Shown here: positions 45,784-64,000 of the stretch, one piece after another | Numbering within the stretch: position 1 is the first letter of the stretch | Layout of the letters: every line of letters begins with the position of its first letter | Assembly: GCA_949300425.1 (NCBI GenBank) | Contig: CASGED010000126.1 | Coordinates: 52,587 to 116,586 of the forward strand | Reading direction: 5' to 3' | Length of the DNA: 64,000 bases | Source of the DNA: an uncultured Bacteroides sp. | GTDB taxonomy: Bacteria > Bacteroidota > Bacteroidia > Bacteroidales > Bacteroidaceae | Made by a program: the position numbers and the translations under genes | The notes under the pieces: model-generated | What the model was told of the DNA's origin: nothing | Databases searched by the model: none | What the model saw: only the letters and a program-made list of their open reading frames with translations

Positions 45784-45803
45784 ATTGTACATCGTTTTTA
45801 AAG

Positions 45804-48800
45804 TTAAAAGCCTAAGTTAATACCGAAACTGAAAGACATGGCACGCGGATAGGACGAGAAGTCCAGACCCGGAGTCAGGGCAGAATTGCGGACAGATACT
45901 TCAGGGTCGTAGCCGGAGTAACCGGTCAGTGTCCACAAATTCTGTGCGGCTACATAGACGCGCGCCTTGTTGATGTTGTACTTGCTCAAGAACTTGGCAG
46001 GTATGTTATAACCCAGCGTTACGGACTTCAGTCGAAGGAACGAAGCGTCCTCAACAACGCGTGAAGAGATAACGAGGTTAGAACCGGAGTTCGAAGCGCG
46101 CGGAATGTCGCTGGTCGGATTTTCGGGCGTCCAACGGTCGGCGTAGCTGGCAAATTGGTTCAGTTCGCGTTTCTTCTGGAAACTGCTCTCGAAGAACAGG
46201 CGGTTGGCGTTCAGCACGTCGTTGCCGTAGCTCCATTGGAAGAAGATATTCAGGTCGAAGCCGTAGAACTCGAAGTTGTTGGTGAAACCACCGGTGTGAA
46301 TCGGCGCGCCGCGACCAATCATGGTACGGTCGTCCGCATCGATAACCCCGTCACCGTTGATATCCTTGTATTTCGGATAACCGGGCTGCGTGTTTGATTC
46401 GCTGGAGTAGTGCGGGATATTGTCTTTCAGCGTATAAGTACTACCAGACTGGTTGAAGTCCTCGTATTTATAGGTACCTTCGTACACATAACCGTAAATC
46501 ATACCCATCGGATAACCTACCTTAGCAATGTAGTTCGGCTGGCTGTTGAAGTTCTGGTCAAAAGGAGCATACCCCATCAAACTGTTCTGTCCTTCGGTCA
46601 ATTCCAATACTTCATTCTTATTAAAAGCAATATTGAAGTTCGAACTCCATTTGAAGTTCTTGTTGTTGACGTTGATGGTGTTCAAGGTCAACTCGATACC
46701 TTGATTACGCACCTTACCGATGTTCTTCATGGCAGTGATGTAGCCCGAAGAGTAAGGCAACTGGGCATCCAGCAACAAGTCGCGGGTAGTCTTGCGGTAC
46801 AAGTCCATGGTGAAAGCGACACGCTCGTCAAAGAGCCCCAAGTCCAAACCGATGTTCCATTGTTCGGTAGTCTCCCATTTCAAGTCTGCATTCGGCAATG
46901 ATGTGGTAGTTACACCCACAGTCTCCAAAACATTGTTAAAAGGATAAACTGTATTATTCACTAATCCGTTTTCAACTGTCGAATTATCATTCACATGAGC
47001 ACGAATCATTTGCAATAAAGCATAACGATCGTACTCACCAATACGGTTGTTACCTGTTAAACCCCAACTGAGACGCAATTTTCCGGAAGATAACCAATCC
47101 TTAGTCGGTTCCATGAAATCTTCCTTCGTGAAAGTCCAAGCGGCAGAACCTGAAGGGAAGTAACCGTAGCGGTTGTCGGCACTGAACTTCGATGAACCAT
47201 CGGCACGGAACGTACCGCTCAGGTAATACTTGCCTTTGTAGTTGTAGCTGGCACTGGCGAAATAAGAGAACAATGCCCACGATGACTTAGCCGAACTAGT
47301 TGCATCAATAGTACCTTGTTCCATCCCTGCCATACCCAAAGATTCATTGGGAATATCACGTGTACCAAACGCATAATATTCATAATCCGAATTTTGCAGC
47401 GTAGTACCTAACATAACGTTCAATGAGTGCGTGTTCTGCCAGTTGTGCTGGTATGTCAACAAGTTTTCGTTCAACCAAGTCAGACGTTCAGTACGACGCA
47501 CCTCTGCATTAACGCCTTTTGTAGAACGTGGTCCACCATAACGTGTTTTACTATTATTGAAAATATCTGTGTGACGATTGTCATAAGTATAACCGCCTGT
47601 TACCTTCAACTTCAGTCCGTCCAAGATTTGATACTGCAAGTATCCGTTCAATTGATAGTTATTCGTATAATTCTTACGATAAGCATTCTTCAAATCCTCA
47701 ATCGGATTAAAACGGTAGTCACTGGCTTCATTCTCAACAGCCTCATCAATCAATTGCGTCCGCAAGTCATCCAACGTTTGGTTAGGATAAGCCACCGGAC
47801 GGTAACCCCAAACGCTGTAAAACAAGTTGTTCATACCGGAATAAGAATTGTCGGAAGGAGAACTACCGGTCTGGATGGTACGCGAATAGTTCGTCGTGAT
47901 GTTAGCCGTGAATTTACCGCGGGTGAACGTGGTGTTCATACGGGCTTGCAAACGCTCGTAACCACTGTTCAGCAAGATACCGTCCTGGCTATAGTAAGAC
48001 AGAGAACCGTTGTAGCGGACATTTTCACCACCTCCGGAGATACCCACGTTGTGGCTGTGCGCCCATGCCGTACGGAAGATTTCGTCTTGCCAGTCAGCTA
48101 CGGGTGCATTGCGATAGTCTTCCAGCGTCCACGTTTTACCTTCGTATGGCTCACCGTTCATGAAGTAACGTTCCAAGGTACGAGTCGGCTCAATTTCGTT
48201 CTGCAGCTTCACAAACTCGTAGCCGCTCATCATTTCCATGGTCTTCGTCACTTTGGAAACGCTAAAACTACCATCATACGTGATGACCGGCTTGCCTTGC
48301 TTACCTTGCTTGGTCGTGATGACCACAACACCGTTGGCGCCACGCGAACCATAGATGGCGGTAGCGGAGGCATCCTTCAAGATGTTGGTAGACTCGATGT
48401 CATTCGGATTGATAGCCGCCGCAGCAGCAGCATCTTCCACCGGGAAACCGTCTATAATATAAAGAGGTGTATTGTCCTGGGTCAACGAGTTGTTACCACG
48501 GATGGTAATGTTCATCGTGGCACCCGGCATACCTTCGCCCGAACTAACGTTCACACCGGCGATACGTCCGCCCAAGGCTTGGTCGAACGAACTGACCGGC
48601 GCACTCAGCAAGTCCTCCATGTTGGCTTTTGCCACCGAACCGGTCAAGTCACCTTTACGAATCTCTTGGTAACCTACTACTACCACTTCGTCCAATTGCT
48701 GCGCGTCTTCTTCCATCGTGATGTTGAAAGTACGCTGGCTACCCACTTTAATCTCTTGCGTTTTGTAACCGATGAATGAGAATTGGAGGATGTCGTCAGG

Positions 48801-49004
48801 CTGGACACGCTCCAACTTAAAATTACCCATCAAATCGGTAGTCATACCATTCGTAGTTCCTTTGACTACTACACTGACGCCCGGAAGTTCTCCCATGGCA
48901 TCAACAACAGTACCTGTCACCGTCACTCCTCCCTCTTGCGCGTAAGACGCGGATATACAGAAGAGCAGCGAGACAAGTAGCGTTAAGGTCGCTTTTAGTC
49001 TCAT
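45804..49004 (-). CDS. SusC/RagA-family TonB-dependent transporter (PUL2)
   Basis: A 1066-residue outer-membrane transporter. Signal peptide to about residue 22 (ending YAQ), CarboxypepD-regulatory-like domain (about 25-95: TVTGTVVDAMGELPGVSVVVKG), TonB box DEVVVVGYQ (105-113), plug (about 115-235: ITIRGNNSL, PLYIIDGFPV, LKDASATAIYGSRGANGV), then the barrel ending SFSFGINLGF. A run of six Ala after the plug's PVED segment comes from a short GCN codon repeat (around 48417). First gene of the PUL2 operon; expected control by the HTCS at 53425. Confidence 0.96.
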   Translation of the reverse strand: MRLKATLTLLVSLLFCISASYAQEGGVTVTGTVVDAMGELPGVSVVVKGTTNGMTTDLMGNFKLERVQPDDILQFSFIGYKTQEIKVGSQRTFNITMEEDAQQLDEVVVVGYQEIRKGDLTGSVAKANMEDLLSAPVSSFDQALGGRIAGVNVSSGEGMPGATMNITIRGNNSLTQDNTPLYIIDGFPVEDAAAAAAINPNDIESTNILKDASATAIYGSRGANGVVVITTKQGKQGKPVITYDGSFSVSKVTKTMEMMSGYEFVKLQNEIEPTRTLERYFMNGEPYEGKTWTLEDYRNAPVADWQDEIFRTAWAHSHNVGISGGGENVRYNGSLSYYSQDGILLNSGYERLQARMNTTFTRGKFTANITTNYSRTIQTGSSPSDNSYSGMNNLFYSVWGYRPVAYPNQTLDDLRTQLIDEAVENEASDYRFNPIEDLKNAYRKNYTNNYQLNGYLQYQILDGLKLKVTGGYTYDNRHTDIFNNSKTRYGGPRSTKGVNAEVRRTERLTWLNENLLTYQHNWQNTHSLNVMLGTTLQNSDYEYYAFGTRDIPNESLGMAGMEQGTIDATSSAKSSWALFSYFASASYNYKGKYYLSGTFRADGSSKFSADNRYGYFPSGSAAWTFTKEDFMEPTKDWLSSGKLRLSWGLTGNNRIGEYDRYALLQMIRAHVNDNSTVENGLVNNTVYPFNNVLETVGVTTTSLPNADLKWETTEQWNIGLDLGLFDERVAFTMDLYRKTTRDLLLDAQLPYSSGYITAMKNIGKVRNQGIELTLNTINVNNKNFKWSSNFNIAFNKNEVLELTEGQNSLMGYAPFDQNFNSQPNYIAKVGYPMGMIYGYVYEGTYKYEDFNQSGSTYTLKDNIPHYSSESNTQPGYPKYKDINGDGVIDADDRTMIGRGAPIHTGGFTNNFEFYGFDLNIFFQWSYGNDVLNANRLFFESSFQKKRELNQFASYADRWTPENPTSDIPRASNSGSNLVISSRVVEDASFLRLKSVTLGYNIPAKFLSKYNINKARVYVAAQNLWTLTGYSGYDPEVSVRNSALTPGLDFSSYPRAMSFSFGINLGF

Positions 49005-49071
49005 AAATTAAATTTTAAATAGTTTATAAAAGGTTGTAATATCTCCCAGTGCAAATCTTTAATTTGCATGG

Positions 49072-49079
49072 CAAAATTA
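49072..49079 (-). promoter_or_regulatory. Probable -7 box of the PUL2 SusC operon
   Basis: Minus-strand TAATTTTG, 67 bp before the SusC ATG. No -33 TTTG at standard spacing, which is usual for activator-dependent PUL promoters. A small hairpin (GCAAAT/ATTTGC at 49051-49067) would lie in the 5' leader. Confidence 0.4.
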
Positions 49080-49274
49080 TGACAAAGCAATTACAAAAAG
49101 CGGCATCTTTCGTCCGCAAATAGGGTAAATTCGTCCAAAATCCCTTTCCGAACGCCATTTTGAAGTCCAATTTGCCCCATTTCATCCAAGACAGGAACGT
49201 TTTTAACACTTCACTGCCATACTTTGCACGGGATGAGAAAATGTCAGTAATTGGGAATTTAAACCACTGACGAA

Positions 49275-49407
49275 CACGGATTAAACGAGATGAGCACAGA
49301 TGCATCTGTCACCCTGAGCGTAGTCGAAGGGTCTCATGTAAGACCTCCTCATGCACTACGTGAGATGTCTCGACAAGCTCGACATGACAGATACCTTAAA
49401 ATCCGTG
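49275..49407. repeat. 133-bp nested inverted repeat (MITE- or REP-like)
   Basis: Concentric complementary pairs: CACGGATT (49275) with AATCCGTG (49400), ATCTGTC (49304) with GACAGAT (49386), GAGC (49316) with GCTC (49377), GTCGA (49323) with TCGAC (49370), and TCTCA (49332) with TGAGA (49361). The inner segment CCTGAGCGTAGTCGAAGGG is, from memory, a type of sequence often met between Bacteroidetes genes. It carries no open frame. Confidence 0.75.
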
Positions 49408-49450
49408 TAAATCCGTACTATCTGTGTTATCTGTGGTTACCCCCGATAAA

Positions 49451-49491
49451 TTATCATTTAATCTCCCGCCCCTTATCATTTAATCTCCCGC
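49451..49491. repeat. Tandem direct repeat, 22-bp period
   Basis: TTATCATTTAATCTCCCGC occurs twice in perfect copy at 49451 and 49473, exactly 22 bp apart. It lies between the large inverted repeat and the TTTCAC hairpins and has the same spacing as the family B arrays. Confidence 0.8.
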
Positions 49492-49620
49492 TTCGTCCCT
49501 TTAAATGGGAGCGACCTTCTGATTAAACGTAATTTGACCGCTTGAAAACAGGCCGTGTTTGAACCGGATAGACGCAACGTTTCACCCTCTACACGAATCT
49601 TTCCGATGTAAGTTTCACGC

Positions 49621-49819
49621 CTTCACAGCATTATAACGCTCTGATTTAGAATTGAATGCTGTGAAAGATACATCTTTCACGGAGGTTTCACATCTCCGTT
49701 TTGTGAAGGATGCGGGACGCTCCCTTAGAAACCGGTTCTGTACGATTTGTGCATATAGATGTACGATTTTACCCTATTGCGTGAAACATGTCTGAGCGTG
49801 AAAGGAAGGCATGTTTCAC
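49621..49819. repeat. Cluster of three hairpins built on TTTCAC/GTGAAA
   Basis: Hairpin 1: TTCACAGCATT (49622-49632) with AATGCTGTGAA (49655-49665). Hairpin 2: ACGGAG (49679-49684) with CTCCGT (49694-49699). Hairpin 3: GTGAAACATG (49781-49790) with CATGTTTCAC (49810-49819). The word TTTCAC or its complement recurs in and around them. They end about 50 bp before the promoter of the ATPase gene. No coding sequence is supported in 49005-49867. Confidence 0.7.
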
Positions 49820-49867
49820 AACAAAGGTCTGAGAATCAAAGCTGTTTCTTTTTATGTCCACGTTATC

Positions 49868-49897
49868 TTGGATATTCATTTATTTTTCGTACTTTTG
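49868..49897 (+). promoter_or_regulatory. Promoter of the AAA-ATPase-like gene
   Basis: TTG (49868-49870), 19 nt, then TACTTTTG (49890-49897). Transcription should begin near 49904, so an in-frame ATG at 49854 cannot be used. Confidence 0.65.
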
Positions 49898-49922
49898 CTC
49901 TATACTTATGATTCATACGACA

Positions 49923-51665
49923 ATGACAAACGCAGTAAAAGGTATTCCCTACGGAGTGGCGCGCTTTGAGGAAGTGCGGAACGGAAATTTCTATTATGTG
50001 GATAAAACCATGTATCTTCCTTTGTTGGAAGATACCGGTAATTACTTGTTCTTGATTCGCCCTCGCCGCTTCGGCAAGAGCGTGTTCGTCAGTATGATGC
50101 AGGCTTATTATGACATCGCGAAGACGAATAAGTTCGACCGGCTGTTCGACGGACTTTGGGTACACGAACATCCCACACCGCTGAAAAACTCGTTCCAAGT
50201 GATTTACTTCGATTTCTCTCTTGTGGGAACGGCTGGGGAAGGCTTGGAAGCCAATTTTAATTTTTATTGCGGCATGATGATGGACAGCTTCATCAAACGC
50301 TATAAGGATTACTACGATGAGGCTTTTTGTAACAAGGTGCTTGCCTTGGACGATGCGGCTTACAAGATGAAGTTGGTCAACGAAGAAGCGCATACCAAGG
50401 GCTATCCCCTTTACCTGATCATAGACGAGTATGACAACTTCACCAACGTGATACTGAGTGAAGGTGGAAAGGATGTGTTCCGCAACCTAACGCACGCCAG
50501 CGGGTTCTACCGGGAATACTTCAAGCTGTTCAAGGCGATGTTCAGCCGGGTGTTCCTCATCGGGGTGTCACCCGTGACATTGGACGACCTGTCCAGCGGG
50601 TACAACATCGACTGGAACATCTCGCAAGACCCGCGCTTCAACGACATGCTGGGCTTCTCGGAGAACGACGTGCGCACCATGTTCCGCTACTTCCAGGACA
50701 ACGGCAAACTGCGTGCGGAGGCGGACATCGAGGCGATGCTGGAAGAGATGAAGCCGTGGTACAACAATTATTGTTTCGCCAAACAATGCTTGGACAAGGA
50801 ACGCATCTACAACTGCGACATGGTGCTTTACTACCTGCGCAACCAAGTCCTCTATGGCTGTGCGCCGGAAGAGATGGTGGACAAGAACATCCGTACGGAC
50901 TACAAGAAGCTGAAGATGCTGGCGGACATCGACCGGGGCAACCAACGGGAGAACCGTATGAGTGTCATCGAGGAGATTGCCGCCACGGGTTCCGTGCTGA
51001 TGAACCTGAAGACGTCTTTCCCCGCCGAGTATGTGACGGATGACAACAATTTCCGAAGCCTGCTTTATTACTACGGTCTGCTGACCATGCACAAAACCGT
51101 AGGAAGACGTATCGAAATGGTCATCCCGAACAATTGCGTGAAAGAACAATATTGGTCCTTTATGCGGGATTATTTCGAGTGGAGTGTCCCGATGAATATT
51201 ACCGCCTTGCAAGACGAAATGGACTTGATGACCTACGAGGGCGACTGGCAACCACTAATCCGCCGCATCGCCGAAGCGTATAAGGAGAACTCTTCCATCC
51301 GTGACAGCATCCGGGGCGAGCACAACCTGCAGGGCTTCTTCAAGGCGTACTTGGCGTTGAACTCGCTCTACTTGGTGGAACCGGAAATAGAACTGAACTA
51401 CGGTTACAGTGATTTCCTGATGTTGCCGGACAAGGCGCGCTATGCGGGCATCGCCCACAGCTACATCATGGAACTGAAGTACGTCAACCCCACGGCCACG
51501 GATGCGGAAGTGGAAGAAAAGTGTCGGGAGGCGGACGAACAGTTGGAAAAATACAGTGCGGACAAGGTGGTGCAACGCCTTTGCGCCGACACGCGACTAC
51601 ATCTACTGAAAGTAGTATTCCGGGGAGCGGAGATGCGAATCTGTGAAGAGGTAGTTACTCCTTAG
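49923..51665 (+). CDS. AAA-ATPase-like protein with C-terminal PD-(D/E)XK nuclease-like domain
   Basis: A 580-residue protein; start at 49923 (MTNAVKGIPYGVARFEEV) is chosen because the promoter excludes the upstream ATG at 49854, though 49908 remains possible. The N-terminal AAA-ATPase-like domain shows FYYVDKTMYLPLLED, the atypical P-loop RPRRFGKS and Walker B YLIIDEYDNFTN. The C-terminal quarter has LNYGYSDFLMLPD and HSYIMELKYVNP, the D...E-x-K pattern of the DUF1703/PD-(D/E)XK family. Such genes occur in many copies in Bacteroides genomes; their function is unproven, with links to mobile or defence functions only suspected. It interrupts PUL2 and is flanked by repeats, so it may be a recent insertion. 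A palindrome overlaps its stop codon. Confidence 0.88.
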   Translation: MTNAVKGIPYGVARFEEVRNGNFYYVDKTMYLPLLEDTGNYLFLIRPRRFGKSVFVSMMQAYYDIAKTNKFDRLFDGLWVHEHPTPLKNSFQVIYFDFSLVGTAGEGLEANFNFYCGMMMDSFIKRYKDYYDEAFCNKVLALDDAAYKMKLVNEEAHTKGYPLYLIIDEYDNFTNVILSEGGKDVFRNLTHASGFYREYFKLFKAMFSRVFLIGVSPVTLDDLSSGYNIDWNISQDPRFNDMLGFSENDVRTMFRYFQDNGKLRAEADIEAMLEEMKPWYNNYCFAKQCLDKERIYNCDMVLYYLRNQVLYGCAPEEMVDKNIRTDYKKLKMLADIDRGNQRENRMSVIEEIAATGSVLMNLKTSFPAEYVTDDNNFRSLLYYYGLLTMHKTVGRRIEMVIPNNCVKEQYWSFMRDYFEWSVPMNITALQDEMDLMTYEGDWQPLIRRIAEAYKENSSIRDSIRGEHNLQGFFKAYLALNSLYLVEPEIELNYGYSDFLMLPDKARYAGIAHSYIMELKYVNPTATDAEVEEKCREADEQLEKYSADKVVQRLCADTRLHLLKVVFRGAEMRICEEVVTP

Positions 51666-51688
51666 TACGATTACCAATCGTACTAAGG
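51660..51688. terminator. Palindromic hairpin overlapping the ATPase stop codon (family C core)
   Basis: CCTTAGTACGATT (51660-51672) pairs perfectly with AATCGTACTAAGG (51676-51688). The TAG stop is inside the left arm. The core ACGATTACCAATCGT differs by one base from the family C unit at 34795. It sits between the convergent ends of the ATPase and sulfatase genes. Confidence 0.8.
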
Positions 51689-51711
51689 ATGCAACTATAT
51701 GGAAACGGTAC

Positions 51712-53277
51712 TTATTCTCTGCCCTTCTGCAGTTCCCCCGCCTTTATCCGCTCCAGCAATTGGGACAATGCAGCCACCCGCTCCGGATGAGCCGCCGCCA
51801 CATTATTCTTCTCTGCCGGGTCGGTTGTGAGGTCATAAAGCTGAGGCTTCGGGTCATTGCCCAGTTCGGTTTTTGTCCAAAACTCGATAGCCGGTTTATC
51901 GCTTGGCTCAATGTATTTCCAATCGCCTTGAATAACAGACAGGGTATTGTTCAGATTCTGCTGTACGACATAACCGCAACCGACGGAATCCGTACCCAAG
52001 AAAGCGCCCAAATTATCGCGACTGTCGGGAGCGACGCCCTGCGGCAATTCATGTCCCAGCAAACGAGCCAACGACGCATATACGTCAATCATGGAAAACA
52101 GCGCGTCTTGCTTACCCGGCTTAATGCGCGCAGGCCAACGCACCAAGAAAGGCGTGCGCGTGCCTGCCTCGTAAGCACTATATTTTCCGCCCCGGTAGTC
52201 CAGCATCGGTTTGTGGCCATTCAACAGTTCCAAGGCCCGGTCCTGATAACCATCATCGATAACGGGTCCATTGTCGCTGCAAAATACAAGAATGGTATTG
52301 TCGGCAATGCCCAGGCTATCCAAGGTATGCATAATCTCTCCTACCGTCCAATCCAATTGGAGAATCACGTCACCACGCGGTCCCATGCCGCTCTTGCCCG
52401 CGAAACGCGGATGCGGCACACGGGGCACATGCACATCCTGCGTACCCATATACAAGAAGAAAGGCTCGTCCTTATGTGCCGCAATAAATGCTTTGGCCTT
52501 GCCGGTAATCACATCGGCAATGTCCTCATCCACCCAAAGGGCAGATTTGCCGCCCGTCATCCAGCCAATGCGGGGAATGCCGTTAATAATGGTATTGTTA
52601 TGACCTTGGCTCGGCTTCATCTTCACCAATTCCGGATTCTCCTCACCCGTAGGCCAGTCCCCTACCTTATGTTCATAGCTCACCGTAATAGGGTCGTCCG
52701 GGTCAAGTCCAACTACCCGTCCATTCTCCACAAACACACAAGGAACGCGATCTACTGTCGCAGGTATCACGAACTCGTAATCGAACCCGATGTCCTGCGC
52801 ATTAGGATGGATTTCTTTATTGAAATCCGTTCCGCCCTTAGGTCCCAGTCCCAAATGCCATTTGCCTACCACCCCGGTGGCATATCCTTCCGCCTTGAAC
52901 ATATCCGCCATCGTGACGCAAGCCGTGTCTATAATCAGTTCTGAATTGCCGGGAGCGATACCCGTATTCTCCTGGCGCCAAGGGTACATGCCGGTCAGAA
53001 GGCCGAAACGAGAGGGTGTACTGGTAGACGACGTGGCATAAGCGTTGGAAAACTGCAAGCCCTGCGCAGCCAGACTGTCCAAATGGGGAGTACTGACGCG
53101 CGTAGCCCCATAACAACTCAAATCACCAATGCCCAAGTCATCGGCAATCAGATATATCACATTCGGTTTCTCCGTTTGTCCCGCGGCATCCGCCTGCTTG
53201 GCAGACTGAGCGCACCCCGCTAAGAAAGGTAATACAGAACCGGACAACAGACAAGGTGTTAAATATCTTATCATCAC
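51712..53277 (-). CDS. Serine-type S1 sulfatase, lipoprotein-like signal (PUL2)
   Basis: A 521-residue exported sulfatase. The N-terminus has a lipoprotein-type signal (SVLPFLAGC, Cys22). The active-site motif S-T-P-S-R (86-90) in SSTSTPSRFGLLTG shows a Ser that a radical-SAM maturase would turn into formylglycine. Metal-binding residues are seen in LIADDLGIGDLSCYGA and VFCSDNGPV; KWHLG and QDVHVP are also in place. In B. thetaiotaomicron the gene between SusC and the HTCS in the chondroitin sulfate locus is a GalNAc-6-O-sulfatase, and this position suggests the same activity, but that is inference from synteny as remembered. It has its own promoter. Confidence 0.9.
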   Translation of the reverse strand: MMIRYLTPCLLSGSVLPFLAGCAQSAKQADAAGQTEKPNVIYLIADDLGIGDLSCYGATRVSTPHLDSLAAQGLQFSNAYATSSTSTPSRFGLLTGMYPWRQENTGIAPGNSELIIDTACVTMADMFKAEGYATGVVGKWHLGLGPKGGTDFNKEIHPNAQDIGFDYEFVIPATVDRVPCVFVENGRVVGLDPDDPITVSYEHKVGDWPTGEENPELVKMKPSQGHNNTIINGIPRIGWMTGGKSALWVDEDIADVITGKAKAFIAAHKDEPFFLYMGTQDVHVPRVPHPRFAGKSGMGPRGDVILQLDWTVGEIMHTLDSLGIADNTILVFCSDNGPVIDDGYQDRALELLNGHKPMLDYRGGKYSAYEAGTRTPFLVRWPARIKPGKQDALFSMIDVYASLARLLGHELPQGVAPDSRDNLGAFLGTDSVGCGYVVQQNLNNTLSVIQGDWKYIEPSDKPAIEFWTKTELGNDPKPQLYDLTTDPAEKNNVAAAHPERVAALSQLLERIKAGELQKGRE

Positions 53278-53318
53278 TTCAATTTAGATTTTAAGTTAGA
53301 CATTTTCCTATCAAGAGC

Positions 53319-53349
53319 CAAAATTAATTTTTTATTTTGAGACTACAAA
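53319..53349 (-). promoter_or_regulatory. Promoter of the PUL2 sulfatase
   Basis: Minus-strand TTTG (53349-53346), 19 nt, then TAATTTTG (53326-53319), leaving a leader of about 35 nt. Confidence 0.6.
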
Positions 53350-53405
53350 CGGAAAAAGGAATAAAAAGCGTGCTTCCTGAACAAATGGAATATAAATGGG
53401 AATTT

Positions 53406-53423
53406 AGCGCGCGCAAGCGCGCT
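53406..53423. terminator. GC hairpin after the PUL2 HTCS gene
   Basis: AGCGCGC pairs with GCGCGCT around a four-base loop (GCAA as read on the plus strand), starting 1 bp after the HTCS stop. There is no U tract on the minus strand. Confidence 0.5.
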
Positions 53424-53424
53424 T

Positions 53425-56400
53425 TCACTCCTCTTCCTTCTTGCGATAAGTCAGCGGATTGACGTGATAAACATCCCTGAAACACTTGCTGAAATAACGG
53501 GGAGAAGTAAAACCTACACGGTCTGAAATCTCCGTAACGTTGAGCTCAGGATGGTTACGCAGCAACAAAGCCCCTTTCTTCAAACGGACATTCAGAATAA
53601 ATTCGTTGGGCGTCTGCCCGGTAATGGCCTTCAACTTGGCGAACAAATTGGTGCGCGCCATCGCCATTTCACGCGCGAACATGTTGACCGTGAAGTTTTC
53701 ATCATCCAGATGCTCCTCTATTATCTTCATGGCACGGTCCAATATCTCCTTGTCAATGGGGTTGGTGGCAAGCATCTGCGGCACCGTAAGAGGCTGTTTA
53801 CTGAACTTCTCCTGCAACAACAGGCGGGAATTGACCAGATTGTTGCAGCGCGATATCAACAAGTTGGTATTGAACGGTTTGGTAATATAATCGTCCGCCC
53901 CGATGCGCAAGCCTTCAACGTTTAATTCGATATTGGTGCGGGCTGTCAGCAGAACAACCGGAATGTGACACGTGTTGTAGTCATTCTTGATGCGCTTACA
54001 CAATTCAGTACCCGACATTTTAGGCATTACGATGTCGCTTAACACGATTTGAGGCATCTCGTCGCAGACCTTATTCCATCCTTCCTCGCCATCGGCGGCA
54101 GTCAGCACATGATAGAACGGCTCAAAAAGATGTTTCAACGTCTCAAGCAACGCTTTGTTGTCTTCCACTATAAGAATCTTGACATCCGGCAAACGCTTAT
54201 TCGGGGCATTTTCTTCCAATTCGGCCTTCGCCAACGCGTCTGCTCCTACTTTGGGAAGTTCTATCTGCCCTTGCGCATTGTCCGTATTCAGGCTGATTTG
54301 CTCTTTGTCAAATTGCTCATTGCCCAAGCGCAACGTCACGATGAAGCATGCCCCCTTACCCGGTTCGCTCTCCACCCGGATTGTGCCCTTGTGCAATTCC
54401 ACAATACCCTTGGTCAGCGCCAGCCCGATACCGGTGCCGGTGCTGTCCGCATGGGATGACTCCGGAAGTTCCACCTGATAGAAGCGGTCGAATATCTTGG
54501 TTATCTCACCGGCGTCGATGCCCTCACCGGTATCAGCCACCCGGATAACGACCTCATCGCCTTCCGCACGGATGCCCAACGTAATGGTACCCTCGGCCGG
54601 AGTATGCTTAAAGGCATTGGAAAGCAAGTTGTTCACCACCTTCTGCATTTGCTTCTGGTCGTACCACACTTCTATATCATCCGCCTCTTTCTCGAACTTG
54701 AATTCTATCTGCTTGCTATGAGCCAGTTCCAAGAAGAGAAGATAGTTCTCATAAAGAAAGTTCACCATGTTGTGCCGGCTCACCTTAATTTTCATGTGCC
54801 CTTGCTCCTGCTTCCGGAAATCGAGCAATTCGTTTATCAGTTCCCTCAACTGGATACAATTCTTATAAACTCCCAACACCTTATTATATATAATAGGTGT
54901 AAAGTTCTGGACCTGCAACAAGGACTCCACTTCCGCCACAATAAGCGTCAGAGGCGTACGGAATTCATGGGAGATGTTGGTGAAGAAGCGCAACTTGGAC
55001 TGGTTGAGCGCTTCCACGTCCTGAATGCACTTCTGCTCGTACTTCAAAGACTCACGAAGCTTGATTCTCGCCTTATACGTATGTATCAAGTACCATAACA
55101 ATACGCCTATAACCACCACATACAGGCAATAAGCCCACGGCGTCTTGTAAAAAGGAGGAAGGACGTGAATGGTCATCACGGCCGGTTCCACCAATGGACC
55201 ACCCGCCGCATCGGCCGGCTTTATGACCAACCGATAAGTCCCGGCGCTCAAATTGGTATAAGTGACAGAATGATGGTCGCGGGCAACAGCCCACTTGTCA
55301 GAGAAACCTTCCAGCCGATAGACGATGTCGGCTTTATTGGCCGCTACATAGTTGGAAGTGGCAAACTCGATGGTAAACATGGAATATTCCGCAGGAATGG
55401 AAATCTCGGACGTATAGTCCAAGGACTGTTGCAGAATGCCGGTTTCGTCCCCCACTTTCACCTCCGTGTCATTCACTATCAAACGGGACAGGTTTATCTT
55501 ATACGGCTTCGGAGTAAAAGCCAATTCCGACTCATAGAAAGAAATCATGCCATGGGTACTGGCCAAGAAGACTTCTCCGTCGCCGGTGACGCACAAGCCG
55601 TTTTCATTAATGCCTGTCAGCGGGAAGCCATTCTCCGAACTGAAATTGCTGAATTGCCCGCTATGGACATCGAACAAGGAGAAACCTCCATTGGTAATCA
55701 GCAGCAACTTGCCGCTCACGGAAGATTCCTGCACCGCATACACGCAATCATCAATCAGCCCGTCTTTGTGGCAATCGTAATTTCGGAAATCACCTGTGGC
55801 CGGGCGAAACACATCCAGCCCGCTGCCCGACGTAGAGAACCACAAATTGCCGTGGCTATCCAAGGCGATGTTATATACGTTGTTGTTGCTTAAAGAGTTC
55901 GCGTTGGCAGGGTCATGGCGAAAGTTTGTCAGCGTCTTGTCCTCGAACTGATAACGGAACACTCCTTCACCGGTGACGGCCATCCATAATGCGCCCTCCG
56001 CATCGAAAGTCACATCTGCCGTCATCTTGATTTTACGCCCTTCAGCCGTGTCCTGAAAAAGCTGACGGCATTTCCCGGTTTCAGGATTGAAAAGACAGAC
56101 TCCGTTTTGCGTAGCCAGAATCAACTGTTCCCCATAAGGAATAATGTCCCGGACAATGTCGGACGGCAATGTTTCCGGATTGCCTTCCTCCATACGGTAA
56201 TTGGTGAAACGTCCGGTACGAACATCCAGACGGTTCAAACCGCCCAAATGAGTACCCACCCACACCGCCTGTCGTCTGGCGTCATAATAAAGAGACTTAA
56301 TATTATCGGCCGACAAGCCGTTCTCCGCTTTTCCCCGACTAAACCATTTAAACTCATGCGTACGCCGATTGTAGAAGTTCAATCCGCCCCCTTCCGTCCC

Positions 56401-57471
56401 AATCCACAGATTGCCGTCGGGGTCTTCCACCATAGGTCCTACGACAGGATAGCTCAATCCCTTCTTCTCCATGGGAGAATAGGTATAATGCGTATAGATT
56501 TCATACTCCGGATTAAAGTAATTCACCCCTCCGAAATAGGTTCCCAGCCAAAGAGTTCCCTGTTCATCTTTCACAATACACCACACCGAAGAATGAGTCA
56601 AACCGGCAGACGAAAGGGCTTGAGAAGTATAATTGGTAAACTTACTGCTCTTTCGGTCGTAACAGTTCAACCCATTGAACGTGCCCAGCCACATATTACC
56701 CAAATTGTCTTCGCAACACGCCCTGACAAAATTGGAAGAAAGGCTCTCCGGATTACCCGGGTCGTGCCGGAAATGGCCGATAGTCCCGTCCGGCTTTATA
56801 CAATACACACCCTCCTCCCAGCTGCCTATCCACAGGCTCCGCTCCGCATCCCGGTAGATACTGGTGATGTTCCCCTTGGGAATGACGTGCGACAAATCCC
56901 TGTTTTCCAAATTCAAACGATAGACTCCACTATTTCCCGTCCCCAGCCAAAACTCATGGCCGGAAAGGTACATGCAGGTCAGCTGCAAGCGTTTGTCCTC
57001 AAGCCGGTAACAAAGTTCAAAATTGCGTTTGTCCTCATCATAACGATAGATTTCGTTCCCCCGGCCGATGTATAACCCGTTTTCGTAATAGATACAATGG
57101 ACACTACCTTGAAGCAACGTGGTGAAACGGCACGTTTTCATGTCAAACTCGGCCACACCTTCCGTACACAACAGATAGATTTTCCCGGCGCGATTGCCCG
57201 TCACCCGCAAAACCGTATTACAGAACAAGCTATAGGGATTGTTTTTCTCCAGCTTGTAAGTAAAGATACCCGTACCGTCATAGCGGTTCAACCCCTCGCG
57301 GGTGCCAATCCACAAGGCGCCTTTCTCGTCAATATACAAACCGTTTACCGAGAACTGAGACAAACCGTCATCCGTACTCAGATGATTGAAAGTAATGTTC
57401 CGCCCCGCTACAGAAAAGACGGACATATATATAAGAAGCAGTAAAAAAGAAATCTTTCGTACCATCAACAA
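53425..57471 (-). CDS. Hybrid two-component system sensor/regulator (HTCS) of PUL2
   Basis: A 1348-residue inner-membrane sensor and transcription factor. Signal segment about 1-23 (ending SVAG), two Reg_prop beta-propellers (about 30-650; repeats WIGTREGLNRYDG, WLGTFNGLNCYDR, WIGTEGGGLNFYN, WVGTHLGGLNRLD), Y_Y_Y domain (about 690-772), transmembrane helix (about 779-797). HisKA has NISHEFRTP with His835, the ATPase domain has NLLSNAFKH and TGTGIGLALTKG. The receiver has KILIVEDN and phospho-Asp1146 (IVLSDIVMP), and an AraC-type domain ends the protein (about 1240-1345). Its place between the sulfatase and divergent GH88 fits the HTCS of chondroitin/hyaluronan loci, which senses unsaturated disaccharides in B. 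thetaiotaomicron. Confidence 0.96.
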   Translation of the reverse strand: MLMVRKISFLLLLIYMSVFSVAGRNITFNHLSTDDGLSQFSVNGLYIDEKGALWIGTREGLNRYDGTGIFTYKLEKNNPYSLFCNTVLRVTGNRAGKIYLLCTEGVAEFDMKTCRFTTLLQGSVHCIYYENGLYIGRGNEIYRYDEDKRNFELCYRLEDKRLQLTCMYLSGHEFWLGTGNSGVYRLNLENRDLSHVIPKGNITSIYRDAERSLWIGSWEEGVYCIKPDGTIGHFRHDPGNPESLSSNFVRACCEDNLGNMWLGTFNGLNCYDRKSSKFTNYTSQALSSAGLTHSSVWCIVKDEQGTLWLGTYFGGVNYFNPEYEIYTHYTYSPMEKKGLSYPVVGPMVEDPDGNLWIGTEGGGLNFYNRRTHEFKWFSRGKAENGLSADNIKSLYYDARRQAVWVGTHLGGLNRLDVRTGRFTNYRMEEGNPETLPSDIVRDIIPYGEQLILATQNGVCLFNPETGKCRQLFQDTAEGRKIKMTADVTFDAEGALWMAVTGEGVFRYQFEDKTLTNFRHDPANANSLSNNNVYNIALDSHGNLWFSTSGSGLDVFRPATGDFRNYDCHKDGLIDDCVYAVQESSVSGKLLLITNGGFSLFDVHSGQFSNFSSENGFPLTGINENGLCVTGDGEVFLASTHGMISFYESELAFTPKPYKINLSRLIVNDTEVKVGDETGILQQSLDYTSEISIPAEYSMFTIEFATSNYVAANKADIVYRLEGFSDKWAVARDHHSVTYTNLSAGTYRLVIKPADAAGGPLVEPAVMTIHVLPPFYKTPWAYCLYVVVIGVLLWYLIHTYKARIKLRESLKYEQKCIQDVEALNQSKLRFFTNISHEFRTPLTLIVAEVESLLQVQNFTPIIYNKVLGVYKNCIQLRELINELLDFRKQEQGHMKIKVSRHNMVNFLYENYLLFLELAHSKQIEFKFEKEADDIEVWYDQKQMQKVVNNLLSNAFKHTPAEGTITLGIRAEGDEVVIRVADTGEGIDAGEITKIFDRFYQVELPESSHADSTGTGIGLALTKGIVELHKGTIRVESEPGKGACFIVTLRLGNEQFDKEQISLNTDNAQGQIELPKVGADALAKAELEENAPNKRLPDVKILIVEDNKALLETLKHLFEPFYHVLTAADGEEGWNKVCDEMPQIVLSDIVMPKMSGTELCKRIKNDYNTCHIPVVLLTARTNIELNVEGLRIGADDYITKPFNTNLLISRCNNLVNSRLLLQEKFSKQPLTVPQMLATNPIDKEILDRAMKIIEEHLDDENFTVNMFAREMAMARTNLFAKLKAITGQTPNEFILNVRLKKGALLLRNHPELNVTEISDRVGFTSPRYFSKCFRDVYHVNPLTYRKKEEE

Positions 57472-57493
57472 TGTTCACTTTTAAATTACGACA

Positions 57494-57501
57494 CAAATAT
57501 A
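57494..57501 (-). promoter_or_regulatory. Probable -7 box of the PUL2 HTCS gene
   Basis: Minus-strand TATATTTG, 22 bp before the HTCS ATG; no clear -33 box. Confidence 0.4.
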
Positions 57502-57628
57502 CCAAACTTTTGCAAAAAATCCCTCACTTCCCGGTTTTCTTGCTTTTTTATGGGCATTTTCTTGCTTAAAAATACAAAATTGGCCTTTTCATGGATAATT
57601 TGACCCTATTTTATCAATTTAATTGTTC

Positions 57629-57636
57629 TAACTTTG
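57629..57636 (+). promoter_or_regulatory. Probable -7 box of the GH88-sulfatase operon
   Basis: TAACTTTG fits TAnnTTTG, 43 bp before the GH88 ATG. No -33 box at normal spacing, consistent with an activator-dependent promoter. Confidence 0.45.
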
Positions 57637-57679
57637 TACACGGAAAGAAAAAGAATATTAATAAAACTAATCCATTATT

Positions 57680-58888
57680 ATGAAAACAACTCTTACAACA
57701 CTGGGATTATCCCTTTGCCTGTTAGTTGGCTGTAGCGGACAAAAGAAACAAGCCGAGACCAACTTCATCCAAGAGAACATTGACAACGCCGTAGCACAGG
57801 AAACGTTGCAGACGGACATTATCGAAAAATCGGGAAAGATTCTGAACCCGCGTACCATCGACAAGGATGGCAACATCGTCTACATTCCCATTGACGACTG
57901 GTGCTCCGGATTCTATCCCGGCAACATGTGGCTGACGTACGAACTGACCGGTGACCAGAAGTGGAAAGCACTGGCAGAGAAGTACACCGAGGATTTGGAC
58001 TCTATCCAATACCTGACTTGGCACCACGACGTAGGCTTCATGATCGGTTGCAGCTACCTGAACGGTTACCGCCTGGCCAACAAGACAGAATACAAGCCCG
58101 TCATTATCCAAACGGCCAAATCATTGTCTACCCGTTTCCGTCCGGGCGCAGGCGTCATCCAGTCTTGGAACACCGACCGAGGCTGGCAGTCCCAACGCGG
58201 ATGGTCATGTCCTGTCATCATCGACAACATGATGAACCTGGAACTGCTGTTTGAGGCTACCCGCCTGTCGGGCGACTCCACATTCTATAATATCGCCGTA
58301 AGCCACGCCAACACAACAATGAAGAACCACTTCCGCCCGGATTATAGCAGCTACCACGTGATAGACTACAATCCCGAGACCGGCGAAGTGCTGCACAAAC
58401 AGACGGCGCAAGGTTACGCCGACGAGTCAGACTGGGCACGCGGCCAGGCATGGGCGCTCTACGGATATACCACCTGCTACCGCTATACGCACGACCAAAA
58501 GTATTTGGATCAAGCTGAAAAAGTTTACAACTTCATCTTCAACGGCAAGAACCTGCCCGAGGACCTCATTCCCTACTGGGACTATGACGCTCCCAACATC
58601 CCGAACGAACCGCGCGACGCTTCGGCAGCCGCATGTACGGCATCGGCCCTCTATGAACTGGAGACTTACGCACCGGGAAAAGGCTACAAGGCCACCGCAG
58701 ACAAGATTATGGAAAGCCTGGCTTCACCGGCCTACCGTGCCGAAGTGGGTACCAACGGAAACTTCATCCTGATGCACTCCGTAGGCAGCATCCCTCACGG
58801 CGCCGAAATCGACGTGCCGCTGAATTATGCGGACTACTATTTCCTGGAAGGACTGATGCGTAAACGCGACCTGGAAAGCGGGAAATAA
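57680..58888 (+). CDS. GH88 unsaturated glucuronyl hydrolase
   Basis: A 402-residue exported enzyme (lipoprotein signal MKTTLTTLGLSLCLLVGC) that removes the 4,5-unsaturated uronic acid from the non-reducing end of disaccharides made by lyases from chondroitin, hyaluronan or related glycans. The (alpha/alpha)6 barrel has WCSGFYPGNMWL, TWHHDVGFM with Asp117, and VIIDNMMNLELL with Asp182, corresponding to the two key Asp residues of characterised GH88 enzymes. RGQAWALYGYTTCYRYT and NYADYYFLEGLMR close the family pattern. It is divergent from the HTCS and is followed by a sulfatase, the same order as in the B. thetaiotaomicron chondroitin sulfate locus as I recall it. Confidence 0.93.
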   Translation: MKTTLTTLGLSLCLLVGCSGQKKQAETNFIQENIDNAVAQETLQTDIIEKSGKILNPRTIDKDGNIVYIPIDDWCSGFYPGNMWLTYELTGDQKWKALAEKYTEDLDSIQYLTWHHDVGFMIGCSYLNGYRLANKTEYKPVIIQTAKSLSTRFRPGAGVIQSWNTDRGWQSQRGWSCPVIIDNMMNLELLFEATRLSGDSTFYNIAVSHANTTMKNHFRPDYSSYHVIDYNPETGEVLHKQTAQGYADESDWARGQAWALYGYTTCYRYTHDQKYLDQAEKVYNFIFNGKNLPEDLIPYWDYDAPNIPNEPRDASAAACTASALYELETYAPGKGYKATADKIMESLASPAYRAEVGTNGNFILMHSVGSIPHGAEIDVPLNYADYYFLEGLMRKRDLESGK

Positions 58889-58922
58889 AAAGGATTCCAC
58901 TACACCTTATTAAAAATAGGAG

Positions 58923-58960
58923 GCCTTGCCCCATCTCCTCTTCGATGAGGCTAGAAAGGG
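58923..58960 (+). terminator. Intra-operon terminator between GH88 and the sulfatase
   Basis: GCCTTGCCC (58923-58931) pairs perfectly with GGGCAAGGC (58948-58956), then TTTT. It may limit sulfatase expression relative to GH88. Its stem core is repeated in the terminator at 60584. Confidence 0.8.
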
Positions 58961-58996
58961 CAAGGCTTTTCATTTAACTCTCTACACTTACTTATC

Positions 58997-60556
58997 ATGA
59001 AAAGACAAATCAATTACTACTTGGCAGGAGGGCTCGGATTGCTCTCTTTACAAGCCTGCAACACGCCTCAACCGGACGCTGCCGCACAGCAACCGAATGT
59101 CATTTACGTATTCCCCGACCAATTCCGCAACCATGCGTTGGAGTTTTGGGGACAAGCAGGTTTCCGCGAAAAAGTCAACTTCCGCAACGACCCTGTGCAT
59201 ACGCCCAACCTGAACGACTTTGCGCGCGAATCCGTCGTCCTGACCTCCGCCATGAGCAACTGTCCGCTGAGCAGTCCGCACCGAGGCTCGTTACTGACCG
59301 GCATGTACCCCAACCGCAGCGGTGTCCCCTTGAATTGCAATTCAAACCGTCCCATCAGCAGCCTGCGTGAGGATGTGGATTGCGTAAGCGACGTGTTCAG
59401 CCGTGCCGGTTACGATTGCGCTTACTTCGGCAAGTTGCACGCAGACTTCCCCACCCCCAACGACCCGGCACATCCCGGTCAATACGTGGATGACCAGAAT
59501 CCGGTGTGGGACGCCTATACGCCCCCTGAGAGACGCCACGGCTTTAACTACTGGTACTCTTACGGCACATTCGATGTACACAAGAATCCGCATTACTGGG
59601 ATACAAAAGGAGTACGCCACGACCCGCACGAATGGTCACCCCTGCACGAAGCGAAAATGGTGGTGTCCTACCTGAAGAATGAAGGGAACGTGCGCGACCC
59701 GCAGAAGCCCTTCTTCATCATGGTAGGCATGAATCCTCCCCACAGCCCCTACCGTTCCTTAGACGACTGCATGGAAGAAGACTTCAACCTCTATAAAGAC
59801 ATCCCGCTGGACAGCCTGCTGGTGCGCCCCAACGCGGATCCGACCATGAAGAAAGCGGCAAGCACTCCCTACTATTTCGCTTCCGTAACGGGCGTTGACC
59901 GTGCGTTCGGCCAAATTCTTGCCGCCTTGAAGGAACTGGGACTGGACAAGAACACCATCGTCGTATTCGCTTCGGACCACGGCGAGACCATGTGCAGCCA
60001 AGGAACAGACGACCCCAAGAACTCGCCCTACGCCGAATCCATGAACGTGCCCTTCCTGGTACGCTTCCCGGACAAGCTGCAGCCGCGTGTGGAAGACAAC
60101 CTCATGTTGTCATCGCCCGACATCATGCCCACCCTCTTGGGACTGGCAGGCCTGAGCGACTCGATACCCGCCACCGTACAAGGCTATAATTACGCGCCCT
60201 TGTTCTTCGACGCAAACGCCGCCGTAGAGCGTCCCACCGGCGCACTCTACATCCAGAACATGGACGGTGAGAAAGACAGTGACGGCAAGGTGCGCTCGTA
60301 CTTCCCCGCCTCACGAGGCTTCAAGTCCGACCGCTACACGCTGGCGCTGTACATCGACCGCAAAGACCATAAGTTGGTAAAGAGCCTGCTGTTCGATGAC
60401 GAGAAAGACCCCTACCAGCTGAACAACCTCCCGTTGGACGAAAACAAGGAAATCGTAGCTTCCCTGTGCGCCGAGATGGGGAAAGAACTGAAACGAATCG
60501 ACGACCCCTGGTTCCAAGAAAGGATTCTGGAGGAGATGATTCCGTACGGAGAATAA
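58997..60556 (+). CDS. Serine-type S1 sulfatase (second, PUL2)
   Basis: A 519-residue exported sulfatase with a lipoprotein signal (LLSLQAC, Cys21). The formylglycine site is S-S-P-H-R (92-96) in NCPLSSPHRGSLLTG, so a Ser replaces the usual Cys. The metal site shows VFPDQFRNHALEFWG, with Gln where many relatives have a second Asp, and FASDHGETM. GKLHAD and NPPHSPY are further active-site segments. Its location right after GH88 matches that of the chondroitin 4-O-endosulfatase gene of B. thetaiotaomicron as I recall it; same activity is plausible but unproven. No promoter of its own is clear in the 108-bp gap, which contains a terminator. Confidence 0.9.
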   Translation: MKRQINYYLAGGLGLLSLQACNTPQPDAAAQQPNVIYVFPDQFRNHALEFWGQAGFREKVNFRNDPVHTPNLNDFARESVVLTSAMSNCPLSSPHRGSLLTGMYPNRSGVPLNCNSNRPISSLREDVDCVSDVFSRAGYDCAYFGKLHADFPTPNDPAHPGQYVDDQNPVWDAYTPPERRHGFNYWYSYGTFDVHKNPHYWDTKGVRHDPHEWSPLHEAKMVVSYLKNEGNVRDPQKPFFIMVGMNPPHSPYRSLDDCMEEDFNLYKDIPLDSLLVRPNADPTMKKAASTPYYFASVTGVDRAFGQILAALKELGLDKNTIVVFASDHGETMCSQGTDDPKNSPYAESMNVPFLVRFPDKLQPRVEDNLMLSSPDIMPTLLGLAGLSDSIPATVQGYNYAPLFFDANAAVERPTGALYIQNMDGEKDSDGKVRSYFPASRGFKSDRYTLALYIDRKDHKLVKSLLFDDEKDPYQLNNLPLDENKEIVASLCAEMGKELKRIDDPWFQERILEEMIPYGE

Positions 60557-63741: not shown

Positions 63742-63771
63742 TTGCATTTTAAAATAAAAGCATTACTTTTG
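63742..63771 (+). promoter_or_regulatory. Promoter of the attenuator-controlled operon
   Basis: TTG (63742-63744), 19 nt, then TACTTTTG (63764-63771). Transcription begins near 63778, about 22 nt before the leader ATG. Confidence 0.65.
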
Positions 63772-63799
63772 CCCCGAAATTAAAAACAAAAAGAAACTT

Positions 63800-63886
63800 A
63801 TGAAGTCATTTAACTTTGCATACTACTTCTTCTTTTACTTTTACTTTAGCCACAAAGTAGAGCGGGAGTTTGTATGTGTCAAGTGA
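63800..63886 (+). CDS. Phe/Tyr-rich leader peptide of an attenuator
   Basis: A 28-residue leader peptide, MKSFNFAYYFFFYFYFSHK followed by VEREFVCVK and a TGA stop. Residues 4-16 hold 7 Phe and 4 Tyr in 13 positions, so translation will stall when charged tRNA-Phe or tRNA-Tyr is scarce. The segment GAGCGGGA (63860-63867), inside the codons for V-E-R-E, is complementary to TCCCGCTC in the left arm of the terminator. A ribosome reaching the stop covers this segment and lets the terminator form; a ribosome stalled on the aromatic run leaves it free to act as antiterminator. This is the classic attenuation layout for aromatic amino acid synthesis. Confidence 0.88.
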   Translation: MKSFNFAYYFFFYFYFSHKVEREFVCVK

Positions 63887-63931
63887 CAGTGACGCTTAAG
63901 AACCAAGGACAATGAATTAAGCAACGATATG

Positions 63932-63966
63932 AATCCCGCTCCTGCACGAAGGAAGCGGGATTTTTT
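63932..63966 (+). terminator. Attenuator terminator
   Basis: AATCCCGCT (63932-63940) pairs perfectly with AGCGGGATT (63954-63962), followed by a T run to 63966. The left arm can pair instead with GAGCGGGA at 63860-63867. Confidence 0.92.
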
Positions 63967-63988
63967 GTTATAGACAATTAAGGTATAT

Positions 63989-64000
63989 ATGAAACGAATA
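63989..64000 (+). CDS. Start of the attenuated structural gene (four codons; probably pheA)
   Basis: Reading ATG AAA CGA ATA (MKRI) at the very edge of the window, 23 bp after the attenuator T run. The leader's Phe/Tyr content predicts a phenylalanine/tyrosine biosynthetic gene; Bacteroides prephenate dehydratases begin with similar residues, so pheA is the best guess. Only four codons are visible. Confidence 0.4.

Follow-up and report, generated by a model that had tools for sequence, protein, structure and literature searches.

In the pheL-pheA and trpL systems of E. coli, a leader rich in the end product of the operon is combined with RNA segments that can pair as 1:2, 2:3 or 3:4, and the decision between these structures is thought to be kinetic. 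Translation in Bacteroidota proceeds mostly without Shine-Dalgarno sequences, and the coupling of ribosome and polymerase in these bacteria is, to our knowledge, an open question. The pheA switch described below would work only if the two were timed closely enough.

The Bacteroid-trp RNA (RF01692) has been described from this phylum (Weinberg et al., 2010; PMC2864571). In five relatives inspected by eye it displays a short leader in which two to three Trp codons are consecutive, a stop codon, a purine-rich segment (GGGAGC in three of them) and a terminator, and the gene that follows is, also by eye, trpB-like. RF01692 was found in seven of 13 genomes (six over the cut-off), and not in the 84% complete genome that holds the window, i.e., the whole stretch of 64,000 nucleotides analysed here. 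Passages of a study on Flavobacterium psychrophilum propose leader attenuation for amino acid operons (PMC9723704), and passages of another report sORFs in 5' UTRs of B. thetaiotaomicron (PMC7366714). The passages concerned do not name pheA, and the word 'phenylalanine' is absent from both main texts. Leader ORFs close to genes are mentioned in part of a further paper (PMC4833913). A survey of premature terminators from 2010 (PMC2965389), which presents a case of its own from Firmicutes, states that leader peptides had until then been known from Proteobacteria and Actinobacteria only; it contains no word starting with 'Bacteroid'. The Salmonella mgtCBR mRNA is described in PMC3641672 as carrying tandem attenuators with two leader ORFs, one of which reads charged tRNA (Pro).

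None of the 4227 Rfam families, T-box and riboswitch families included, matched the window at the gathering threshold. Below that threshold only chance-level matches were seen, the best of a leader type being Trp_leader with 18.2 bits (cut-off 41, E 0.35). Assignment to a described Rfam leader family was thus rejected, as neither Trp_leader nor Bacteroid-trp, nor any other, reaches its gathering score. We estimate a probability of about 0.9 that the element at the end of the window is a ribosome-mediated transcription attenuator of an operon for pheA, an aminotransferase, a DAHP synthase/chorismate mutase and tyrA, which would sense the charging of both tRNA-Phe and tRNA-Tyr.

Parts of the element and its target operon

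The window forms the end of its contig (G000:C126:52587-116586), and only 12 bases of pheA are included. The features are as follows.

63764-63771, + strand: promoter box of the type TAnnTTTG, TACTTTTG, predicted from sequence
63800-63886, + strand: leader peptide ORF, 28 codons, MKSFNFAYYFFFYFYFSHKVEREFVCVK followed by a stop codon
63809-63847, + strand: run of regulatory codons (codons 4-16, seven Phe and four Tyr), doubling as the 5' part of the protector (segment 1)
63805-63893, + strand: predicted protector hairpin 1:2, 31 pairs between 63805-63841 and 63854-63893, taking in segment 2
63860-63875, + strand: segment 2, the 5' strand of the antiterminator, GAGCGGGA-(G)-TTTGTAT
63876-63895, + strand: small hairpin GUGUC/GACGC inside the antiterminator, with the leader stop codon in its loop
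63927-63941, + strand: segment 3, the 3' strand of the antiterminator, overlapping the left terminator arm (63932-63940)
63932-63966, + strand: intrinsic terminator, stem 63932-63940/63954-63962 with T run 63961-63966, the right arm being segment 4
63989-64000, + strand: start of pheA (MKRI...), of which the contig contains 12 bases; the equivalent in the relative L004 starts prephenate dehydratase

Aromatic residues occupy 11 of the 13 positions of codons 4-16, and one more Phe is found at codon 24. The leader is the sole aromatic-rich ATG sORF (10-60 aa, at least 7/10 aromatic) on either strand of the 64 kb. In Markov-1 shuffles (n = 30) the mean number of such ORFs per window was 0.07, and the observed 9/10 was never reached; together with the exclusive position 5' of pheA in the genus loci, this rules out a chance aromatic ORF. 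The box at 63764-63771 presumably corresponds to the promoter consensus of these bacteria; its specified bases do not vary across an alignment of 53 genus rows, and a -33 element may be present as TTG at 63742-63744.

The sequence GAGCGGGA (63860-63867) pairs perfectly over 8 bp with TCCCGCTC (63934-63941), and TTTGTAT (63869-63875) extends the duplex by pairing with ATATGAA (63927-63933) to a total of 15 bp with one bulged G. RNAfold of 63855-63980 gave z = -2.76, and three of 200 shuffles were equally stable. The original prediction, made from the letters of the window, had described a Bacteroidetes-type promoter, a 28-codon leader with 11 aromatic residues in 13 positions, a 9-bp terminator stem with a T run and a start codon right after it, all of which were recovered at the positions given above, the start codon at 63989 being that of pheA judging by relatives. 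The mix of seven Phe and four Tyr on which it remarked proved to be real and general (see below). Its antiterminator segment was likewise found, with the perfect 8 bp to the left terminator arm, but the duplex as a whole has 15 bp with one bulge and not 8.

That prediction did not include a protector hairpin, in which the aromatic codons pair with the antiterminator segment; here such a hairpin is predicted, with partial support. When the order of the leader codons was shuffled, the native order favoured protector folding in the window (p = 0.005), and p < 0.05 was obtained in 29 of 59 modules at the level of the order and in three of 14 others. The contribution of the third bases to leader folding is smaller (10 of 59 and one of 14, respectively; p = 0.05 in the window). 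An alternative short register, UACUUU (63842-63847) with AAAGUA (63854-63859), has p = 0.047 in the window and is significant in 26 of 73 modules. In the model of nascent RNA the protector is outcompeted by the antiterminator, and the evidence for this predicted hairpin is weaker than for the other parts of the attenuator.

When it comes to the downstream genes, the start codon that matches 63989 in two relatives, L004 (92% identical) and L006 (81%), opens a gene for prephenate dehydratase, and this is followed by an aminotransferase gene. The operon of L023 has the order pheA (Pfam PDT), aminotransferase I/II, DAHP synthase with chorismate mutase, and prephenate dehydrogenase. The Pfam matches used for this naming are above their cut-offs, except for one aspartate aminotransferase model. 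The NCBIfam matches shown are all below their curated cut-offs; they agree for pheA, the DAHP synthase/chorismate mutase and tyrA, and are of several kinds for the aminotransferase. The aromatic operon that the original prediction expected downstream is thus present in relatives. As it includes both pheA and tyrA, the operon seen there makes both of the amino acids that the leader would sense. No PheA match at E 1e-20 was obtained in the window's own genome, in keeping with the contig break and the 84% completeness.

Assemblies tend to break at this element. The contig of the window ends just past the element, and in the genome G586 the contigs C6 and C18 (L190, L191) both end in it, with an exact overlap of 139 nt. 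There are 17 upstream contig ends at 5 kb or less from pheA, and four of these (L032, L062, L076, L088) are within 220 nt of it. A block of 80 nt is identical between the window and L066/L090, which suggests collapse of the assembly graph between co-resident species. Elsewhere in the window, 43981-60556 resembles a polysaccharide utilisation locus, with SusD and SusC homologues, an AAA-ATPase/PDDEXK protein, two sulfatases, a hybrid two-component regulator and a GH88 enzyme.

Conservation and covariation within and beyond the genus

A query with 259 bases of the window matched 24 of 41 genomes, its own included, and outside the genus one of 16. The genus set consists of the PheA loci of the best 80 of 565 relatives found, and an aromatic leader is present in 76 of these 80. 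In the remaining four, the sequence begins too near pheA (L032, L062, L088) or no leader is seen in 420 nt (L052). All 76 aromatic sORFs (at least 8/10) in the 770 kb of genus loci are pheA leaders, one per locus.

An alignment of the window with a manual selection of 52 out of the 80 genus loci (53 rows, 52 of them distinct) was used to follow the pairings. In the antiterminator with the small hairpin, 94.3% of the cells are paired and four pairs are altered on both sides, a number matched in none of 500 shuffles. Controls in which the pairing was slid gave one to three such pairs (16 cells compared to one to three). For the terminator with a short leader hairpin the figures are 96.4% and three pairs, again matched in none of 500 shuffles, and zero to one in slid controls. 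The small hairpin alone has 94.9% of its cells paired, and two of its five pairs are changed on both sides, at the genus level only. The ninth terminator pair is open in 25 of the 52 distinct rows, and four pairs in the outer part of the antiterminator are open in 6-14 rows.

The locus L047 displays a three-way compensatory change. Here GAGCGGGA has become GAGTGGGA, TCCCGCTC has become TCCCACTC, and the right arm has gone from AGCGGGATT to AGTGGGATT. The pairings are kept across segments 2, 3 and 4 while the peptide changes from Arg to Trp. At codon 27 (Val/Ile), pairing of the first base within the small hairpin is retained in 48 of 51 rows. Conservation of the leader tail at the level of the peptide was dropped in favour of RNA pairing on account of the codon 27 pair and the matching changes in L047, and the tail after the aromatic run, as judged from the sequences, looks like a by-product of that pairing. 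The leader frame and the stems are conserved with compensatory changes, which the original prediction had named as a sign in its favour.

Two further observations were made in these loci. The leader stop codon lies in a loop, AAGUGACAGU (63881-63890 in the window), in which eight of 10 positions are conserved at 90% or more in the 53 genus rows, although this loop is unpaired in the antiterminator model. In L089 the left terminator arm 5' of pheA is absent, either by deletion or by an assembly error.

For the wider set, 80 pheA upstream regions of lineages outside the genus set, mostly one or two per family, were picked by hand from 102 and 76 match rows, some genomes being in both. One of them (L130, only 35 nt) was dropped before all counts, leaving 79. 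A module was defined as an ATG ORF of 10-60 aa with at least 6/9 aromatic residues and a terminator 15-160 nt past the last aromatic codon. Such modules were found in 63 of the 79 regions. The share is 51 of 56 within the same order or family, compared to 12 of 23 among other orders in the class. By this fixed rule no module was found in the other 16, but one of these, L136, shows an aromatic run and pairing by eye, without an ATG. A hairpin with a T run is present 5' of pheA in the window and 77 modules.

After removal of the near-duplicates L181, L023 and L182, 73 modules were used for the tests of segment 2:3 pairing, short register, spacing and composition, and codon order. The duplex of a segment 3 with its own segment 2 has a mean energy of -16.05 kcal/mol, compared to -10.75 kcal/mol for swapped partners, a difference reached in none of 20000 permutations. 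The pairing is better than in shuffles (p < 0.05) in 64 of the 73 modules; the nine failures are L103, L125, L128, L142, L148, L151, L163 and one module each of L156 and L178. As GGGA/TCCC is shared by many lineages, only 16 segment 3s have their own segment 2 as the top-ranking one of the 73 partners; for 50 it is among the best ten. The peptide and RNA sequences vary widely outside the genus, yet segment 2 fits its own segment 3.

Segment 2 starts 11.8 +/- 2.4 nt past the last aromatic codon (7-14 nt in 65 of the 73), which roughly matches how far a ribosome extends 3' of its A site. The stop codon precedes segment 2 in 23 modules and lies after its start in 50, the window among the latter. 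Phe and Tyr are both present in 71 of the 73 leaders, and two have Phe only. Trp codons also occur in 10 of the 73 runs (L135, L138, L140, L148 and others), and these leaders perhaps sense Trp too.

Other aromatic leaders in the genus were searched for with a pattern of eight consecutive Phe/Tyr codons and the reversed pattern as control. The pattern matched in at least 50 of 60 genomes, and the reversed control also matched often. Many of the extra matches among those listed are TTC or TAC repeats, and the one that was inspected, L189 in the window's genome, has no leader-like context by eye.

Two modules in series are found at 10 of the 63 loci, and the window is not one of them. Eight are from the same order, L105 (f68), L109 (f88), L111 (f60), L120 (f96), L180 (f60), L169 (f25), L176 (f93) and L178 (f106), and two from other orders, L153 (f181) and L156 (f168). 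An eleventh, L181, was dropped as a near-duplicate of L109. In L105, L109, L111, L120 and L180 the aromatic run of the second leader ends in YFM and is followed by a GGTG-type segment, and the first module uses ACGGG. Cross-pairing between modules is weaker than own pairing in these five and also in L169, narrowly so in L109 (-10.9 own, -10.1 cross). A clean orthogonality of all tandem modules was rejected, as cross-pairing is about equal to own pairing in at least one direction in L153, L156, L176 and L178. With moderate confidence we propose that dual Phe/Tyr attenuators form a family spread across the Bacteroidota. In several of its lineages (nine family labels) two complete modules, each with aromatic leader, antiterminator and terminator, would precede pheA; since polymerase would need to get past both, the response would be multiplied and steeper. 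Four families of the order (f60, f68, f88 and f96) keep an ACGGG-type first and a GGTG-type second module, limiting cross-pairing in most. The tandem modules would presumably act in series, and they raise the question of how the doubling of an attenuator affects the dose response.

Predicted switching and alternative explanations

The features by which an attenuator is recognized are present, i.e., a leader ORF with regulatory codons, an intrinsic terminator, a mutually exclusive antiterminator just 3' of the regulatory codons and, in relatives, a matching operon. At the level of sequence comparison, the parts of the attenuator, their conservation, their coordinated variation and the target operon are established, and we infer the ribosome positions, the kinetics and the response to starvation.

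Transcription would begin near 63778, and a ribosome would follow on the leader. If tRNA-Phe or tRNA-Tyr is short, the ribosome should stall in the Phe/Tyr run, so that segment 1 is covered and segment 2 left free. Segment 2 (63860-63875) could then pair with the newly made segment 3 (63927-63941), no terminator would form, and pheA would be transcribed. If both tRNAs are plentiful, the ribosome would advance over segment 2, allowing the terminator at 63932-63966 to form. Without a ribosome, segment 1 would on kinetic grounds be expected to hold segment 2, giving termination by default, which the folding model does not show.

The switch was modelled with a ribosome that blocks an assumed footprint, beginning 12 nt 5' of the P site and reaching 13 nt beyond the first base of the A site, and with nascent RNAs ending at 63945 and 63952 (also at 63925, before segment 3 has been made). 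The antiterminator has a probability of 0.91-0.97 with the A site on codons 4-16, of 0.54-0.61 on codon 17 and of 0.00 on codons 18-27, and the model would thus have the switch occur where the aromatic run ends, at its last codon, codon 16. When no ribosome is present, the probability that segment 2 pairs with the leader codons is 0.87 at the 3' end 63925, and once segment 3 has been made the antiterminator reaches 0.91 at 63945 and 0.84 at 63952. Segment 2 becomes free again (0.70-0.97) when the ribosome has reached codon 28 or the stop codon. Termination in these states would need good timing or an earlier protector, and of all steps in the mechanism, what happens by default when no ribosome is present is the least certain. 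An equilibrium model of the full leader transcript was rejected as a description of the switch and replaced by the nascent ends, as the terminator wins in it at every ribosome position (0.91-0.99). Since the finished transcript always prefers the terminator and the free nascent RNA the antiterminator, the decision must, according to the model, be kinetic.

The same attenuator might in practice sense Phe alone, the Tyr codons being pairing filler, i.e., pyrimidine-rich codons that face the purine-rich segment 2. Phe is indeed more frequent than Tyr in the last 12 codons (5.1 compared to 3.7), the final codon is Phe in 57 of the 73 modules, and since folding shapes the codon order the choice of codons is not free. 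However, both amino acids are kept in all but two of the 73 modules, and tyrA, the product of which is a maker of Tyr, belongs to the operon. We therefore regard sensing of Phe alone as unlikely.

That finished RNA favours the terminator in any state, and free nascent RNA the antiterminator, would also agree with stalling on the leader that acts through RNA stability, Rho or translation of pheA instead of the intrinsic terminator. This is quite improbable given the hairpin and T run found 5' of pheA in the window and the 77 modules, and given that the left arm and segment 2 co-vary between lineages. It is more improbable still that the ORF encodes a small functional aromatic protein that has no relation to pheA and is followed by its own ordinary terminator. 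Such a protein could account for the nearly invariant C-terminal VEREFVC in the genus, but this stretch acts as RNA, as seen from the codon 27 pair (48 of 51 rows) and from L047, where Arg goes to Trp with matching segments 3 and 4. The tail is moreover mostly different or missing outside the genus, and in the 770 kb around pheA at the 80 loci such ORFs are found only just 5' of pheA. A terminator-based attenuator that senses both amino acids is thus the reading we prefer. The three-way change in L047, together with more than 100 homologues (76 genus loci and 63 wider regions), makes it a ready model.

Relation to described systems

No description of a Phe/Tyr leader of pheA was found in the open literature by title or start of abstract, and a comparative study of amino acid attenuation from 2010 may list one. 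Leader attenuation in Bacteroidetes is not new as an idea, as Bacteroid-trp and, in the passages concerned, the proposal for F. psychrophilum (PMC9723704) precede it. New aspects, as far as could be seen, are the existence of a Phe/Tyr family at pheA, how widely it is spread and how it covaries, and its occurrence in series. It would provide a concrete and testable control of Phe and Tyr synthesis for the phylum of dominant gut bacteria.

The pheA leader shares with Bacteroid-trp the phylum and the arrangement of a leader, a purine-rich segment and a terminator. Bacteroid-trp differs in its Trp codons, in its operon and in its sequence, and RF01692 has no match in the window. The proposal for F. 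psychrophilum, in the passages concerned, is alike in phylum, in being directed at amino acid operons and in the mechanism proposed. The mgtCBR system of Salmonella, as described in the paper cited, responds to two signals (ATP and Pro), while the tandem pheA loci have two Phe/Tyr modules, each with its own terminator. With pheL-pheA and trpL of E. coli, the element has in common the proposed logic of segments and a leader rich in the end product, and pheA is a target in both organisms. Unlike these, the leader described here combines two amino acids in one peptide, and in the genus its antiterminator segment lies inside the ORF.
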